A stretch of DNA of 64,000 nt from a virus. The translations under genes and the position numbers were made by a program. Numbering within the stretch: position 1 is the stretch's first letter; every line of letters starts with the position of its first letter. This document shows, one piece after another, positions 2,985-60,670 of this stretch. Below the pieces are notes generated by a model. That model saw only the letters and a list, made by a program, of their open reading frames with translations, made no database searches and had not been told where the DNA came from. The stretch lies in IMG/VR virus record IMGVR_UViG_3300034071_000286, positions 33,778 to 97,777 of that record. One strand, given 5' to 3'.

Positions 2985-3979
2985 TAGAGTGTCCCTGTAT
3001 CAAGTCTGCCCGTTGACCAACCGGCTGCTCCCGGTCCAGTGTAATCTGTAAGAGTAGCTGGAGAATTACCAGACTCAGAACGTCCGTGCATCTTCCAAGC
3101 TTTGGCGTAAAGAATTTTCATGCCTTTTTCTTTACCATATTCCTTAACGAAACGCTCTTTATTTGACTTGATCCAATCTTCAATCTTTGGATCTGAAGGA
3201 GCAACTTCGTCTAACTTGTTTTTTGCTTTTTCAATACCAGCTTCTCTCTTATCTATATTAACCATATCAGAAGCTTTTCTATTCATTGGATCTTTGATAT
3301 TCTTTAGTTTCTGAACTTCACTAGCTGCCTTTTTAACATATGCAGCTAAAATTCTTCCAGACAATTCATCTAGTTGTTCATCTTCAGTCATCTTCTTTAC
3401 TAAGAAAGTTGATCCTTTTAACTTACCGATTGTCTTGTTTGTTCTATCAAGAAGACCAGCTGGTTTGCCTAAACTTCTTGAATCCTTCTTATTTTTCATA
3501 AGATGAGAATCTGTAAACTGATTACCGACTCTTAGAGCCTTGCCAATCTCGATTCCTTCGTTGGTCTTTTTATCGACAAGTAACTTGCGATCTTTTTTGT
3601 CGGTGTAACCTGGGCATTCGTCCATACCATGAACTTCACACTGCATACCTTCTTTAGTATTGTTACAACCACAGGATTCAGAGAATGACATAATTGCAGT
3701 CTTTTTTTCACCAGCACCTAGCTTCTGGTTGGTTATATTTGAGTCTGTCTCTTCGTAAACGCTTGCTTCCTGACGTGGATACTTAGCTGGCTTCGTTGAA
3801 CCAGTATAAACATCGTCGCCATTACCAACACGATCTTCGTGCTTCTCTACTGGATGCTTATCGTCAATAAACTTTAGACCATCAGGAGAGTTCCATTGGT
3901 ACATATCCTTATGGTTTAGCTTAACGACCTTGCTGGATTTAACACCAGCTAAAACGTCTTTTAAAGGCTTCTTTGCCAT
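2984..3979 (-). CDS. Putative prohead core protein (gene 68 position) with Cys cluster
   Basis: A 331-residue basic protein in the slot of T4 gene 68, a minor core protein of 141 residues, but much longer and without clear similarity to it. Three parts can be seen: an N-terminal Lys/Asp-rich segment; a compact cluster C103, C105, C114, H117, C122 that looks like a small metal site; and a C-terminal Lys-rich helical half ending in a KERFVKEYGKEKG...LYAKAWKMHG segment, a type common in phage structural proteins. It sits one base after the gp67-like gene. Likely a prohead or virion protein; the biochemical role is unknown. Confidence 0.7.
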   Translation of the reverse strand: MAKKPLKDVLAGVKSSKVVKLNHKDMYQWNSPDGLKFIDDKHPVEKHEDRVGNGDDVYTGSTKPAKYPRQEASVYEETDSNITNQKLGAGEKKTAIMSFSESCGCNNTKEGMQCEVHGMDECPGYTDKKDRKLLVDKKTNEGIEIGKALRVGNQFTDSHLMKNKKDSRSLGKPAGLLDRTNKTIGKLKGSTFLVKKMTEDEQLDELSGRILAAYVKKAASEVQKLKNIKDPMNRKASDMVNIDKREAGIEKAKNKLDEVAPSDPKIEDWIKSNKERFVKEYGKEKGMKILYAKAWKMHGRSESGNSPATLTDYTGPGAAGWSTGRLDTGTL

Positions 3980-33485: not shown

Positions 33486-35746
33486 TATAGAGCAGTCCTA
33501 AAGAATCTTACAGTTGTATTAGTATACGCACCAGCTGGTGTAAAGTTCAATACAACGTGCGTAAGGTTAGCAGCAATATTAGCAGAGAATATACCCAATA
33601 CGTTGTTCGTAACAAGCTGAGCATATTCTGTAACGTAAGCATTACCTCTATCGTGAACAGTTAATAGCTTAGACATAGTTCTGTTATTGGCGTTATTATC
33701 GAATACATGAACAACATATTCAGCACCAAAACCTGTAACGACCGAATAACTATCAATAAGCTGCGTTGATGTACCGGTTGTGGTGATAGCAGCGTTATAA
33801 ATTGGAATCGTTGGTAGAGCTGCCCAAGATCCATTAGCGTTAAGGAAGGTATTTCCTTGGGCTATCTGGGAAGTGGTTGGGTTTACGATAGTAATGCTAG
33901 TTGTAGAGTTAGCAATTTTAATCGATGTAGAATTAGCAGATACGTTTGTAGCAGTTCCGCCAACATTTAATGTATTAACAACATTTAGGGCTACAGCATT
34001 AACGAAGCTTGAGTTAGCTACAAATGTAGTTCCTACTGTATAAGACGCAGCATTAATTGTACCTGTGTGATAAGCACCAGTAGAATTAGCTAGGAATGCA
34101 GAAGCAATATTAGCTGATGTTATAGCGTATAGAGTAGCAGTATTAACCTGATTAACAACGTTAATGGCTACAGCGTTAACTAGAGTTGAATTGGCCGTAA
34201 ATGCAGTTCCAACAGAGAACGTAGCGGTATTAACAGTTCCTGTAGTATTAGCAATAAAGATACCAGAACTATTTGAAACCGAAGAAGAACCAATCGTATA
34301 AGATACAGCGTTAACTGTACCAATACCATAAGCGCCGGTTGAGTTGGCAATTAGATAGCCGTTAACATTTAGAGCGGTTGAATTAACAAACGAATTACCT
34401 GTACCACCACCAACTGTTAAAGACGTTGTAACTGTTAGGTTATTATTAACTGTTGCGTTATTAGAGATATAAAGAGTGTTAGCAACAATGTTAAACCATT
34501 TATTTGATGTATTACCAAGGCTGTAAACGCTATCGGTTGATGGAATTAGATCACCAACTGCGTTACCCGTATACGTTAAACTACCATTAACAACTAGATT
34601 ACCTCTAACAAAAAGATCATTCTTAACGTTAGCGTAACCACTACCTGCTAATCCAAGTTCGATTATAGCGTTGGCTACGCTTAATGAGCCTCTTGTTGAA
34701 ATCGTTAGTGCTGTTACTGTTGTATTAGCAGTAGAGTTTGATGCTACAAACGATGTGGTATTAATTACAGTATTAGTTGTGCCTGTACCAAAAGCGATAG
34801 CTGGAGTGTTAATCGTACCTGTAATTAAACCTGGAACGATAATTCCAGTATCGTTAGCATAGAAGCCCCAAGTTGTAGCAATAGAAGAAGAATTGATAGT
34901 TGTATTAACGCTAGAATTACCCATAGCAGTAACGGTTGAGTTCGTTACTGAATAGATAGTGCTATTACCGATAAACAACGTAGACGTATTAGCAATGACG
35001 TTTGAGCCAAGATATACGTTATAAGAAGACATAGATGACGAGTTAATCGTCGTGTTTACGCTATTACCAAGAGCAAACGATGTTGTATTAATTACAACGT
35101 TAGTTAGGCTGTTACTTACGAATACTGTTGAAGTATTAACGTAAACATTGGAGCCTACCTTTACAGCAGTTGTATTAGCGATTAAACCACCAGCGCCTGT
35201 TGTAATAATTGTTGTATTAACAATACTATTACCAATCGTCAGATCAAGAGGCGTTAATAGAGCCTGAGAATCGTTATTTGATAGGTAAATCGAAGCTGCG
35301 TTAACTACGATATTAGAAGTTGGGCTGTTGATTACAAGATTTGTCTTGTTAAGATAAGCATTGGATGTAGTTGGACCAACCCAGAAAGTTGTAGTATTGG
35401 TCGATAGATTAGATCCAATATATGTAGCAGACGTATTAACAGCAGATGGTGTGATGATCGTATTGGTAATAGTGTTACCAACAGATATGTAACTAGAATT
35501 AACTCTAGTTGTATTAGCTGTTGATATCGTAGAGTTACCAATTACAACCGAAGAAACGATATTGGCTGTATTCGTAGTTAAGTTATTGGAAGTAAAGATT
35601 CCAGTGATAGTAGCATCGCCAACAGCTGCGTTAGAACCACCAGCAGTAACAGCATATGTTGATAAAGCATATGCTATTTCATTGGTTCTATTGCGCCAAT
35701 AATCGAAAGTATTATTATTTGCGGTATTTGCAACTGTTACGGTCAT
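33485..35746 (-). CDS. Tail fibre shaft protein with distinct C-terminal domain
   Basis: A 753-residue fibre. Residues about 40-360 are many copies of a GNSTVNTTINSSS-type unit (a threaded beta-helix shaft). Residues 380-450 include LIPSTDSVYSLGNTSNKWFNI, a module also in the 945-residue fibre. The last 110 residues (from about 645) form a beta domain with TQLIDSYSVVTGFGAEYVVHVFD and LLTVHDRGNAYVTEYAQLVT, probably a small head. The function as an elongated fibre is inferred from repeats and position. Confidence 0.8.
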   Translation of the reverse strand: MTVTVANTANNNTFDYWRNRTNEIAYALSTYAVTAGGSNAAVGDATITGIFTSNNLTTNTANIVSSVVIGNSTISTANTTRVNSSYISVGNTITNTIITPSAVNTSATYIGSNLSTNTTTFWVGPTTSNAYLNKTNLVINSPTSNIVVNAASIYLSNNDSQALLTPLDLTIGNSIVNTTIITTGAGGLIANTTAVKVGSNVYVNTSTVFVSNSLTNVVINTTSFALGNSVNTTINSSSMSSYNVYLGSNVIANTSTLFIGNSTIYSVTNSTVTAMGNSSVNTTINSSSIATTWGFYANDTGIIVPGLITGTINTPAIAFGTGTTNTVINTTSFVASNSTANTTVTALTISTRGSLSVANAIIELGLAGSGYANVKNDLFVRGNLVVNGSLTYTGNAVGDLIPSTDSVYSLGNTSNKWFNIVANTLYISNNATVNNNLTVTTSLTVGGGTGNSFVNSTALNVNGYLIANSTGAYGIGTVNAVSYTIGSSSVSNSSGIFIANTTGTVNTATFSVGTAFTANSTLVNAVAINVVNQVNTATLYAITSANIASAFLANSTGAYHTGTINAASYTVGTTFVANSSFVNAVALNVVNTLNVGGTATNVSANSTSIKIANSTTSITIVNPTTSQIAQGNTFLNANGSWAALPTIPIYNAAITTTGTSTQLIDSYSVVTGFGAEYVVHVFDNNANNRTMSKLLTVHDRGNAYVTEYAQLVTNNVLGIFSANIAANLTHVVLNFTPAGAYTNTTVRFFRTAL

Positions 35747-57134: not shown

Positions 57135-57794
57135 ATGGCTTTTAATATAAACAGATTCGCAACAAATATCAGGGACTTTGGTTATCTTGATAACAACTCA
57201 TTCGTTGTCATGGTACAAACGCCACCAGTTCTTGCGAACGCATATTTAAGCAATCAAGGCAATCCTACAGCAACTGCTTCCATAGCTCAAAATATGAGCT
57301 TCCGTATCGATCAAGTCAGAGCGCCTGGCATCTCATTATCGACCGCTGATATTAACAGATACGGTATTGGTCCAACCCAGAAGCAACCTATAGCGGCACA
57401 GTTCCAAGAGATTAACATCTCTATTCTAGGCGATCATTATTGCGAGTTTTGGCAATATTGGTATCAGTGGACAAGAGCAGTATTTCAGTATAATGGTGTT
57501 AACGGCCAAGCTCCAAACTACACAGCTGAATATAAAGACCAATTCTCTTCAACCATTGTTATTATGATTTGCGATCAGTTTGGTAATATCATTCAAAAGA
57601 TAAATCTGTTCGAAGCCTTTCCAACGGCTCTTAGAGAAGTTCCTTTATCTTGGGCTGATACAACCAATCTAATGAAGATCAACGTATCTATTGCATTCAC
57701 TGAGTATTCTATCGAAGGTTCAAGTATGCAGACTATTAGACCACAACCAACTAATATGTTTACAGGAACACAAAGGGAAACTGTAAGTTCTTAA
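57135..57794 (+). CDS. Tail tube-like protein, probable tube initiator (gp54-like)
   Basis: A 219-residue relative of the tail tube protein: start MAFNINRFATNIRDFGYLDNNSFVVMV (in pieces) like gp19, RIDQVRAPGISLSTADINRYGIG, EFWQYWYQWTRAVF, and the closing pattern MKINVSIAFTEYSIEG that is usual for the tube fold. The true tail tube gene lies at 6082-6693. A second tube-fold gene next to tail-assembly genes suggests the T4 gp54 role: the first ring on which the tube grows. Confidence 0.78.
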   Translation: MAFNINRFATNIRDFGYLDNNSFVVMVQTPPVLANAYLSNQGNPTATASIAQNMSFRIDQVRAPGISLSTADINRYGIGPTQKQPIAAQFQEINISILGDHYCEFWQYWYQWTRAVFQYNGVNGQAPNYTAEYKDQFSSTIVIMICDQFGNIIQKINLFEAFPTALREVPLSWADTTNLMKINVSIAFTEYSIEGSSMQTIRPQPTNMFTGTQRETVSS

Positions 57795-57810: not shown

Positions 57811-58521
57811 ATGGCTTTACCGAAAATTGACTATCCAATGTACAGAATTGAAATACCATCGATGAAAAAGGAATTTCAATTTAGACCATTTTTAGTTAAA
57901 GAAGAAAAACTGTTGCTTATGTCAAAAGAGAGCGAGAATACTGCTGATATTCTAGCAGCTATTAAACAGATTATCAACAACTGCTCTCTTGATAAAACTT
58001 TAGATGTTAATAAGCTGGCACTATTTGATTTAGAATACATCTTCTTGAAGCTGAGATCTTTATCGGTAGATAACGTGATCAAGGTAACATATAAAGATAA
58101 CGAAGATCAGAAGAAGTATGATTTTGATATCAATCTAGATGATGTTAAAATGGTATATCCAGAGAATGTCGATAACAACATCAAGTTATCTGGAAAATCT
58201 GGAATCATTATGAAATACCCAACTGCTGCTCTATATGATGATAAAGACTTCTTATCCTTAGAGAAGGATTATATGTTTGAATTAATCGTTCGATGTATTG
58301 ATTCGATCTATTATGAAGATGAAGTATATCAGTGTAAAGATTATAAGAAGCAAGAACTTAATGATTTTATAGAAAACCTTAATATCAAGGCATTCGAACA
58401 GATTCAAAAGTTTCTATTAAATGTTCCTAAAATGGAATACGTTATCACATATGAAAATTCTTTGGGTAATGAACGAAAGATCGTTCTGAATTCGTTAAAT
58501 GATTTTTTTACTTGGCGCTGA
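57811..58521 (+). CDS. 26: Baseplate hub assembly protein gp26-like, zero-frame product
   Basis: A 236-residue protein of the T4 gp26 / 'T4_baseplate' family (T4: 208 aa), probably a tail-assembly chaperone. The start ALPKIDYPMYRIEIPSMKKEFQFRPFLVKEEKLLL (in pieces), then ADILAAIKQIINNC and KLRSLSVDNVIKV, is characteristic. The zero-frame product ends FFTWR at a TGA located within a possible stem-loop. Directly before this stop, T-TTT-TTT (58503-58509) is in correct phase for -1 slippage into a frame continuing for 59 codons. In many tailed phages such paired products are made just upstream of the tape-measure gene, as here. Confidence 0.88.
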   Translation: MALPKIDYPMYRIEIPSMKKEFQFRPFLVKEEKLLLMSKESENTADILAAIKQIINNCSLDKTLDVNKLALFDLEYIFLKLRSLSVDNVIKVTYKDNEDQKKYDFDINLDDVKMVYPENVDNNIKLSGKSGIIMKYPTAALYDDKDFLSLEKDYMFELIVRCIDSIYYEDEVYQCKDYKKQELNDFIENLNIKAFEQIQKFLLNVPKMEYVITYENSLGNERKIVLNSLNDFFTWR

Positions 58522-58688
58522 GTCATACATCGTTGTCTAACTATTATTCAACGATATTTTCAATGGTTCAGCATCATAAATATTCCATAAGTGAAGTTGA
58601 AGCGCTAATACCATTCGAAAGAGACATTTATGTACAGATGTTAGTTGATTATTTGAAGGAAGTAGAAGAAGCCAAGAAACAAAAATAA
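57811..58688 (+). CDS. Predicted -1 frameshift product, gp26-gp51-like
   Basis: If the ribosome slips -1 on the T run at 58503-58509, translation continues YLALSHTSLSNYY and so on to the TAA at 58686-58688, giving a 292-residue protein. The 59-residue extension has FSMVQHHKYSISEVEALIPFERDIYVQMLVDYL, a pattern I recognise from tail-assembly chaperone C-termini of the gp51 kind. No good ribosome-binding site precedes any ATG within the extension, and the extension overlaps the end of gene 26, so separate initiation is unlikely. The alternative is a sequencing error or pseudogene remnant. Confidence 0.7.
58503..58572 (+). promoter_or_regulatory. Predicted -1 ribosomal frameshift signal
   Basis: The slippery heptamer T-TTT-TTT (58503-58509) is in frame with gene 26. 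After a 7-base spacer a 10-bp stem forms (58517-58526 with 58563-58572, including two G-U pairs), enclosing a second perfect 7-bp hairpin (ATCGTTG at 58529-58535 with CAACGAT at 58549-58555). The TGA of the zero frame is inside the first stem. Heptamer, spacer and structure are the standard parts of a -1 signal. Confidence 0.7.
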
Positions 58689-58699
58689 GAAGGTAAACC

Positions 58700-60670
58700 A
58701 TGGCTGACACAGAAGAGTTAAGTTATATTCTAAATCAAATGAGAAACTCTATGGAGTTCTCAATTTCTCAAGTCGTGGGTGAATTCCGTCAGGCTGCTAT
58801 GCAGTCAAACGCTAATATCAGTAGAGTCGTAAAAGACATTTATACTGTATTTAAAAGCCAAAGACAAGATGTAGTTGATTTAGAAAACTCTATAAACGAT
58901 GTAGCATCTGAAACTCAAGAAATGTCGTCAAAGATTGATAGACTTGGTGTCTACATGCAGGATCTTATCTCTGTAGAAACTAACATTCTAGGTTCTATTA
59001 GAGATATGGGAAAGAACATCGTTATCCTTAACGATAGCACCGAATCTCTAAACGAGAACATGAAAGAATCTCTAGGTGAAAAGGGATTACTTGGTGCAAT
59101 TACCTCTGGTGTTGGTACTCTTTCTAGCGGTCTTTGGGAATTAACTAAAATGGGTATCGGTGCCGGTGCTGTGGTAGGCGGCGCATCTATGCTCGGCGGT
59201 GATTCTAATACTAGTAGTTTTAATTGGGGGTCTGGACCAGAAAACGTTAATATGAAAGCCGCAGCCGATGCTATTAAATCGATTGAATCGAAAGGTAGCG
59301 GCGGTTATAAAGCACAAAACCCAGGCAGTTCTGCTTCTGGTGCTTATCAATTTATTGACTCAACTTGGCAAAGCGCAGCTGCTGGCGCTGGTATTGGAAC
59401 TCAATTTAAAAGAGCAGTAGATGCTCCACCAGAAATTCAAGATGCGGTATTTAATGACTACTTCCAAAAACTAATTAAAAAGGAAGGATTGAGAAACGCC
59501 GTATTAACTCACTTTCTTGGTCCTAAACATACTATATCCGCAGAAGCACAAAGAAATAATATAACACCAAGTTCTTATCTTTCAAAATTTGAAAGATCGT
59601 ATAGTGCTGGTTCCTCTACTAATCCATCAGAATCAGCTTCTGCTACTACTCCAAGATCTGATGCTACACCAGCTGCTGTAACTCCTTCTGGTAAAGATTC
59701 AGAAAGAATGGAAGGCGCTTCTCCTTTACCATCTGGCGATCTAGTCGCTTTAGGAAAAGCTCTTCAAGGTATGGGAATTAGAGTTTCTGAGCACCCAGCT
59801 TTCGGAGGCGTTCATCCAGAGCAACATCATCCTGGATCTGCGCATAACGATGGTATGGCTATGGATATTAACGCTCCTGGTAATATAGTAGAAGCAAGAG
59901 ATCCTGTATGGGGTCCAAAGTTTGATAAGTTAGCTAAACAATTACAAGCTGCTGGTTATACTGTTCTTTGGAGAGTTAAAGATCACGATAATCATATTCA
60001 TGCTCAAATAGGCGGTAAAGGTATTAGAGGTGGTGCGTCTGCTATCGGTGGTTTGATGGGAGCATCACCCGATCAAGCACATAGCGAAGCATATAATAAA
60101 TCCACGTTAACTCCCGGCTCAACGCCAATGACAACAGTACAAACTGTTCCACCGCCTTCTGCTAGTGCTGAAAGAACAGAATCTGGTTCTACTGCTATTT
60201 CTAGACCAATGGAACCTGCTGGATCTAATCTACCTATGCAAATTGGATTAGGAGCTTTAAATAGTTTTATGCCAGGTGGTCTTGGTGGAATAGTAGGATC
60301 GTTCTTACCTATGCTAACTAGTGCTTTAGGTAATATGAACGCACCTATGCCTCAAGCTGCCTTAATGCCTTCTATTGGTCCAGGTCAATTAATAGGTGGA
60401 ACTTCTTTACCAGAAATGAATAGTCAGATAGTTAAACAAACTGCTGTTCAATCTGCTGCTAATCAAGAAACATTCCAAGAGAGTTTATTTAACGAAACTC
60501 CTGCTCAAAATAACATTCAAGTCAACGGCGGTCAATCTGGATATATCGGAGATATGGCTGGATATAATTATAATCATCCAGCTGATGTTAGTTGGCCAGA
60601 TTGGGCATCTTTAATCGGTGGCAATCACTGGGAAGAAGCTAAGAAAATTAAAAAGCACATGGGTGCATAA
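58700..60670 (+). CDS. Tape-measure-like hub protein with two peptidoglycan-cleaving domains
   Basis: A 656-residue protein (T4 gp29: 590). Residues 1-130 are helical and coiled, as in tape measures, and a Gly-rich hydrophobic stretch (MGIGAGAVVGGASMLGG) lies at 151-167. Residues 188-300 resemble a lytic transglycosylase: SIESKGSGGY with catalytic-type E196 and GAYQFIDSTWQ. Residues 345-440 resemble an M15-type zinc peptidase: SAHNDGMAMDIN (H382, D389) and DHDNHIHAQI (H432 or H434). The rest is Pro/Ser/Gly linker. The gene follows the frameshifted chaperone gene, the usual tape-measure position. These enzymes would let the tail cross the cell wall. Confidence 0.8.
   Translation: MADTEELSYILNQMRNSMEFSISQVVGEFRQAAMQSNANISRVVKDIYTVFKSQRQDVVDLENSINDVASETQEMSSKIDRLGVYMQDLISVETNILGSIRDMGKNIVILNDSTESLNENMKESLGEKGLLGAITSGVGTLSSGLWELTKMGIGAGAVVGGASMLGGDSNTSSFNWGSGPENVNMKAAADAIKSIESKGSGGYKAQNPGSSASGAYQFIDSTWQSAAAGAGIGTQFKRAVDAPPEIQDAVFNDYFQKLIKKEGLRNAVLTHFLGPKHTISAEAQRNNITPSSYLSKFERSYSAGSSTNPSESASATTPRSDATPAAVTPSGKDSERMEGASPLPSGDLVALGKALQGMGIRVSEHPAFGGVHPEQHHPGSAHNDGMAMDINAPGNIVEARDPVWGPKFDKLAKQLQAAGYTVLWRVKDHDNHIHAQIGGKGIRGGASAIGGLMGASPDQAHSEAYNKSTLTPGSTPMTTVQTVPPPSASAERTESGSTAISRPMEPAGSNLPMQIGLGALNSFMPGGLGGIVGSFLPMLTSALGNMNAPMPQAALMPSIGPGQLIGGTSLPEMNSQIVKQTAVQSAANQETFQESLFNETPAQNNIQVNGGQSGYIGDMAGYNYNHPADVSWPDWASLIGGNHWEEAKKIKKHMGA

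Follow-up and report, generated by a model that had tools for sequence, protein, structure and literature searches.

A conserved T_TTT_TTN heptamer and a putative -1 ribosomal frameshift in gene 26, a likely tail assembly chaperone gene, of an IMG/VR virus and its relatives

The DNA considered here comes from an uncultured T4-like virus. It is a window of 64,000 nucleotides (positions 33,778 to 97,777) of the IMG/VR virus record IMGVR_UViG_3300034071_000286, which is 97,777 bases in total, and its subject is the junction between gene 26 and an extension in the -1 frame. All features are on the plus strand. Gene 26 is a zero-frame open reading frame (ORF) of 236 amino acids at 57811-58521. Its product belongs to the PF12322 family (T4_baseplate, E 1.9e-57; 194.9 bits against a cut-off of 24.5 in a profile search) and matches phrog_150 (E 1e-63). 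It is the putative short form of a tail assembly chaperone (TAC), that is, a TAC-N or gpG-like protein and the counterpart of T4 gp26. The zero frame ends ...AAT GAT TTT TTT ACT TGG CGC TGA, and its stop codon occupies 58519-58521. A heptamer of the X_XXY_YYZ type that characterizes -1 programmed ribosomal frameshifting, T_TTT_TTT, lies in phase at 58503-58509, 9 nt before this stop. The -1 frame opens at 58503, the preceding stop being at 58500-58502. After a slip, reading would run from the codon TAC at 58509-58511 through AAA at 58683-58685, 59 codons in all, to a TAA stop at 58686-58688. This extension (58509-58688) would be the C-terminal part of the long, TAC-NC or gpGT-like form. It matches phrog_634 (E 4.5e-24), a family labelled 'baseplate hub assembly catalyst'. 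The heptamer in correct phase, the open -1 frame of 59 codons and its gp51-like sequence had all been claimed in the initial annotation and are borne out.

The remaining parts of the proposed signal lie downstream. A spacer of 7 nt (58510-58516), also as first described, separates the heptamer from a putative stimulatory stem, whose 5' arm GCUGAGUCA (58517-58525) spans the zero-frame stop and whose 3' arm UGGUUCAGC lies at 58564-58572. An inner hairpin (58529-58555, with 58529-58535 pairing with 58549-58555) is predicted within the loop of this stem. The structure had been described as a two-tier stem-loop covering the stop; the outer stem does span the stop, but the inner stem is conserved in close relatives only and is not a general feature.

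It is known that most long-tailed phages make tail-building helper proteins by means of a -1 slip near the end of a gene that adds a tail piece. It is very probable that gene 26 likewise gives two products, a short and a long form of a likely tail assembly chaperone, by -1 ribosomal frameshifting at T_TTT_TTT. The majority of ribosomes would end at 58519-58521 and give the 236-residue short form (TAC-N), which corresponds to gpG of lambda and gp26 of T4. A smaller share would meet the stem at 58517-58572 while the P- and A-site tRNAs are on T_TTT_TTT, slip back one base and continue in the -1 frame, giving a long form of about 292 residues (TAC-NC), equivalent to gpGT of lambda and to T4 gp51 in its entirety. 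If lambda is a guide, the short and the long form would both bind the tape measure protein (probably encoded by the following ORF), with the extension serving to recruit tail-tube subunits. In this analysis, evidence from sequence evolution supports the change of frame, the heptamer, the stem and the gp26/gp51 paralogy described below. Expectations for the chaperone function, the client, the ratio of short to long form and the efficiency of frameshifting are drawn from other phages.

The heptamer is conserved well beyond the window. A scan of IMG/VR yielded 80 relatives of gene 26, to which cultured phages were then added. The extension is in the -1 frame in 79 of the 80 IMG/VR relatives and the remaining one (locus L044) is cut off at the end of its contig. 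The combined set with a -1 extension holds 96 loci, which represent 75 distinct junctions and 64 sequence clusters. It includes the window clade, the cyanophages S-PM2, S-ShM2, S-SM1, P-TIM40 and S-CRM01, Methylophilales phage Melnitz, Sinorhizobium phage phiM7, Rhizobium and Agrobacterium phages, pf16, phages of the KVP40 type and Aeromonas phage 65. Alignment of the junction in relatives had been proposed as a check of the frameshift, and in all 96 loci T_TTT_TTN is present in phase, followed by the zero-frame stop after 0-9 nt. The last base of the heptamer varies among the 75 distinct junctions (51 T, 22 C, 1 A and 1 G), which the simultaneous-slippage model permits. Every one of the 64 clusters uses TTT for the first Phe (background 65%) and has a T as the last base of the preceding codon; the probabilities of about 1e-13 and 1e-16, respectively, hold if the clusters are independent, and they overstate the significance because the clusters share kinship. 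Judged from these alignments, the conservation of the heptamer is far beyond chance.

The RNA downstream of the heptamer also folds better than shuffled controls. In the window, 101 nt fold with -22.9 kcal/mol (z -2.39). Across the 64 clusters, the 61 nt at +5 to +65 past the heptamer have a mean z of -2.33 against shuffled sequences, compared with -0.42 to -0.02 at four control offsets. The 9-bp outer stem begins 7 nt past the heptamer, within the 5-9 nt at which a downstream stimulator would be looked for, in the window clade and in some further clades; other clades have different hairpins. Among 28 relatives, 93.7% of cells in the outer stem are paired, a value biased upward because these relatives were partly selected for having the stem, whereas slid versions of the stem reach at most 37%. 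Compensatory changes on both sides are seen in four of the nine pairs of the outer stem in these relatives. Its covariation score is 0.263 versus 0.185 for shuffled alignments, with 0 of 500 reaching it, and RNAalifold independently recovers eight of the nine pairs. When the same stem positions are examined in all 64 clusters, 71% are paired versus 62% with permuted arms (0 of 2000 permutations reach it). The outer stem is a candidate stimulator of slippage. Together with the heptamers and the folding results, the covarying stem supports the programmed -1 frameshift that had been claimed for this junction.

A different candidate stimulator is found elsewhere in the family. A Shine-Dalgarno (SD)-like sequence, GAGGG or GAAGGA, lies 7-17 nt upstream of the heptamer in 28 of the 64 clusters (among L050-L116), compared with a background of 2%. 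The choice of synonymous codons is biased in its favor, with GAG preferred for Glu and GGA or GGG for Gly. The element resembles the stimulator known from dnaX.

The relationship to T4 differs from the one first proposed, in which a frameshift was thought to fuse the products of two separate T4 genes, 26 and 51. In T4 these genes are on opposite strands and encode proteins of 208 and 249 residues, both of which belong to PF12322 (E 4e-52 and 9e-64). The phrog_634 match in T4 gp51 is at residues 147-246. A hidden Markov model (HMM) of the extension, built from frameshift phages without T4, finds the C-termini of gp51 from T4 and from the T4-type phage phiAS4 (E 1e-8 to 1e-2). The idea that T4 gp51 corresponds to the extension alone is therefore rejected; gp51 is a complete paralogue of gp26 that ends in the extension, and the two T4 proteins are the short and long PF12322 paralogues. 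Since gp51 consists of a gp26-type body plus the extension, the frameshift product would be the counterpart of the whole of T4 gp51 and the unshifted product that of T4 gp26. When entire records were searched, PF12322 occurred once in the window record, once in its 168,653-base relative and once in each frameshift phage covered. T4, phiAS4 and another two T4-type records each have two copies, and the heptamer is missing from the gp26 genes of these four. In a tree, the bodies of the frameshift proteins, gp26 and gp51 form three separate groups with long branches and no outgroup, an arrangement that does not settle the order of events. In one T4-type locus (L098:2982-3755) gene 51 seems to be split over two frames, with the body ORF ending at 3360 and the C-terminus in an ORF at 3296-3755; this appears to be an assembly error or a broken gene.

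The extension could in principle be a separate small gene, a gp51 of the cyanophage style that starts at a TTG or ATG near the gene 26 stop and is translated by stop-start coupling. It is annotated as such in many GenBank records, and the extension in the window does contain a formal start, a TTG at 58512, which is not preceded by a Shine-Dalgarno sequence. The claim that the extension has no start of its own is supported, with this qualification in the window. Within codons 1-12 of the -1 frame, 42 of the 64 clusters lack an ATG and 25 lack ATG, GTG and TTG altogether, and this start-poor first part of the extension is nevertheless conserved as protein. In locus L073 the earliest start codon is codon 45. 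Past the zero-frame stop, differences between relatives fall on third (2784), first (1451) and second (793) positions of -1-frame codons, and this excess of third positions is the mark of a protein-coding sequence read in that frame. The heptamer is present wherever a -1 extension was found, and the example of T4 gp51 places the extension at the end of a gp26-type body. An own start is rejected at the level of the family on the start codon counts of the clusters, and for the window a separate gene is considered very improbable.

Two further explanations concern the run of T residues itself. If RNA polymerase slipped on the run of seven T, which occurs in the window and in 41 of the 64 clusters, mRNAs with altered numbers of U would arise and the long form could be made without ribosomal frameshifting. 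However, the heptamer is T_TTT_TTC in 21 of the 64 clusters and ends in A or G in two more, which leaves six T only and disfavors transcriptional slippage. The structured, covarying RNA at a spacing appropriate for ribosomes and the upstream SD-like element, which acts on ribosomes, also argue against it, and this explanation is very unlikely. Runs of T are error-prone in metagenome assemblies, so that a one-base error could have broken a single in-frame gene or made it appear as a pseudogene. Five identical copies are present in other contigs (L002-L006), the same frame relation is seen in 96 loci, including finished cultured phages whose genomes effectively amount to resequencing of the T run, and the divergence is dominated by third positions. 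The independent genomes exclude such an error, and its probability for the window is negligible.

Several observations weigh against ribosomal frameshifting at the heptamer or against the chaperone role assigned to its products, in addition to the kinship of the clusters noted above. Vibrio phage K476 (L087:3700-3905) is the sole relative of gene 26 found without the heptamer. It has one PF12322 copy and an ATGATG at the stop, and its -1 frame retains an extension-like ORF after ...CTTTTTGCGTAATGATGG (alike by eye; the HMM match is not significant). A switch to stop-start coupling is possible in K476. In phages of the KVP40 type and in some cyanophages an ATG overlaps the zero-frame stop, so stop-start coupling may supplement or replace slippage in those relatives. 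The SD-like element is absent in the window and its clade. A search of the 97,777-base record with T4 gp29 gave no match, which makes the tape measure assignment of the next ORF weak. An AlphaFold model of the window gp26 (pLDDT 86.9) had no significant match among folds in the PDB; its matches include 3fgx (prob 0.51) and 2ob9 (prob 0.23), with E values of 2-3 that are individually not significant. PMC9603447 describes 3FGX and 2OB9, the latter being HK97 gp13, as tail assembly chaperones, and the faint resemblance to these two folds also speaks, weakly, for the chaperone role. A model of a T4-type gp51 gave nothing significant against PDB folds, with no TAC structure among the matches listed. 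Sequence searches of the PDB found no credible relative. In BFVD, the gp26 model matches baseplate hub proteins of Campylobacter phages (CP220, CP21) and of Bacillus SP-15, Serratia 2050H1 and Aeromonas phiA8-29 phages.

The chaperone role of the gene 26 products is likely by comparison with other phages. In PMC3004832, T4 gp26 and gp51 are listed as hub assembly chaperones and gp51 is stated not to be in the particle; genetic evidence for T4 gp26 in the hub is also cited there. A major review (PMC5009743) describes gpG and gpGT of lambda as binding the tape measure protein and as absent from virions, and calls T4 the exception to G/GT frameshifting in long-tailed phages. The parallel with the G/GT chaperones that had been drawn for this junction is supported, the system probably being of the TAC-N/TAC-NC kind. 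As in lambda, a -1 slip shortly before the upstream gene ends would yield a short and a long chaperone, and the gene is flanked by a tail-tube family gene and a long ORF that partly resembles tape measure proteins. Unlike lambda, whose G/GT heptamer differs, the window has an all-T heptamer, and the comparison with lambda is one of arrangement rather than of sequence.

The question of whether such a system had been reported in T4-like relatives can be answered in the affirmative. Both PMC10885494 and PMC12846349, with reference to Vladimirov, Gautam and Davidson 2022 (Virology 566:9-15), describe T4-like phages with separate genes for short and long chaperones, and the latter, citing the same work, treats it as known that TAC-N genes of T4-like phages contain poly-T slippery sites. 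These citing papers place both arrangements in the literature; systems of this kind are thus already known, and the window locus is an additional member. T4 shares with it the PF12322/phrog_150 family and a short and a long form, the latter ending in the same extension, but T4 uses two divergent paralogous genes without a heptamer where the window would use one gene and a -1 frameshift. Poly-T sites of the known kind are found here in Kyanoviridae, KVP40-type, Aeromonas 65, Sinorhizobium, Rhizobium and pf16 phages; the window clade differs in its 9-bp covarying stem and its lack of an SD-like element. Along with this new member, its broad conservation, the covarying stem and evidence of misannotation are set out here, and no priority is claimed for the stem, the SD-like element or the copy-number pattern. 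Taken with the 2022 work on T4-like chaperones, the results suggest that the frameshift spans the wider kin of T4, the heptamer going with one copy, and T4 and its close relatives having two copies without it.

It may also be, although this is offered tentatively and with some doubt, that control of the frameshift has been rebuilt repeatedly around a fixed heptamer. The window clade would rely on a long covarying stem and lack an SD-like element, while other clades would have an SD-like element with short hairpins, the T4 relatives two paralogues and K476 perhaps a stop-start overlap. If this is true, one gene family has several ways of setting the ratio of short to long form. The clade-specific candidate stimulators form a natural series in which the evolution of frameshift signals could be studied.

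The extension is present in about 560 phage records. In the records that were opened it is either left out or annotated as a separate 'gp51' gene, and in none is there a joined gene. The 'gp51' of cyanophage records is the C-terminal tail only, and in the cyanophage records L083 (NC_062735) and L111 (KU686210) no annotation marks the extension, which lies between gene 26 and the long ORF. This is evidence of misannotation in the phage records opened.

The genes around the junction appear to follow the lambda V-G-T-H order, which is shared by the window locus and its relatives: a tail-tube family gene, gene 26, the extension and a long ORF, which follows the extension in most relatives. The upstream tail-tube family gene is at 57135-57794 (phrog_45, E 2.1e-20; PF23849, E 1.1e-6). 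The long ORF at 58700-60670 encodes 656 residues with transglycosylase-like and tape-measure-like regions (phrog_13339, E 2.7e-14; PF06737, E 1.3e-4, below the cut-off). It matches the tape measure profile only in part, and it is the probable tape measure protein and client. Beside the transglycosylase-like region, a DD-peptidase-like region can be seen by eye (HNDGMAMDIN...HIHAQ), and the product may be a tape measure protein that carries cell-wall enzymes. Cyanophages have larger ORFs at the position of this ORF.
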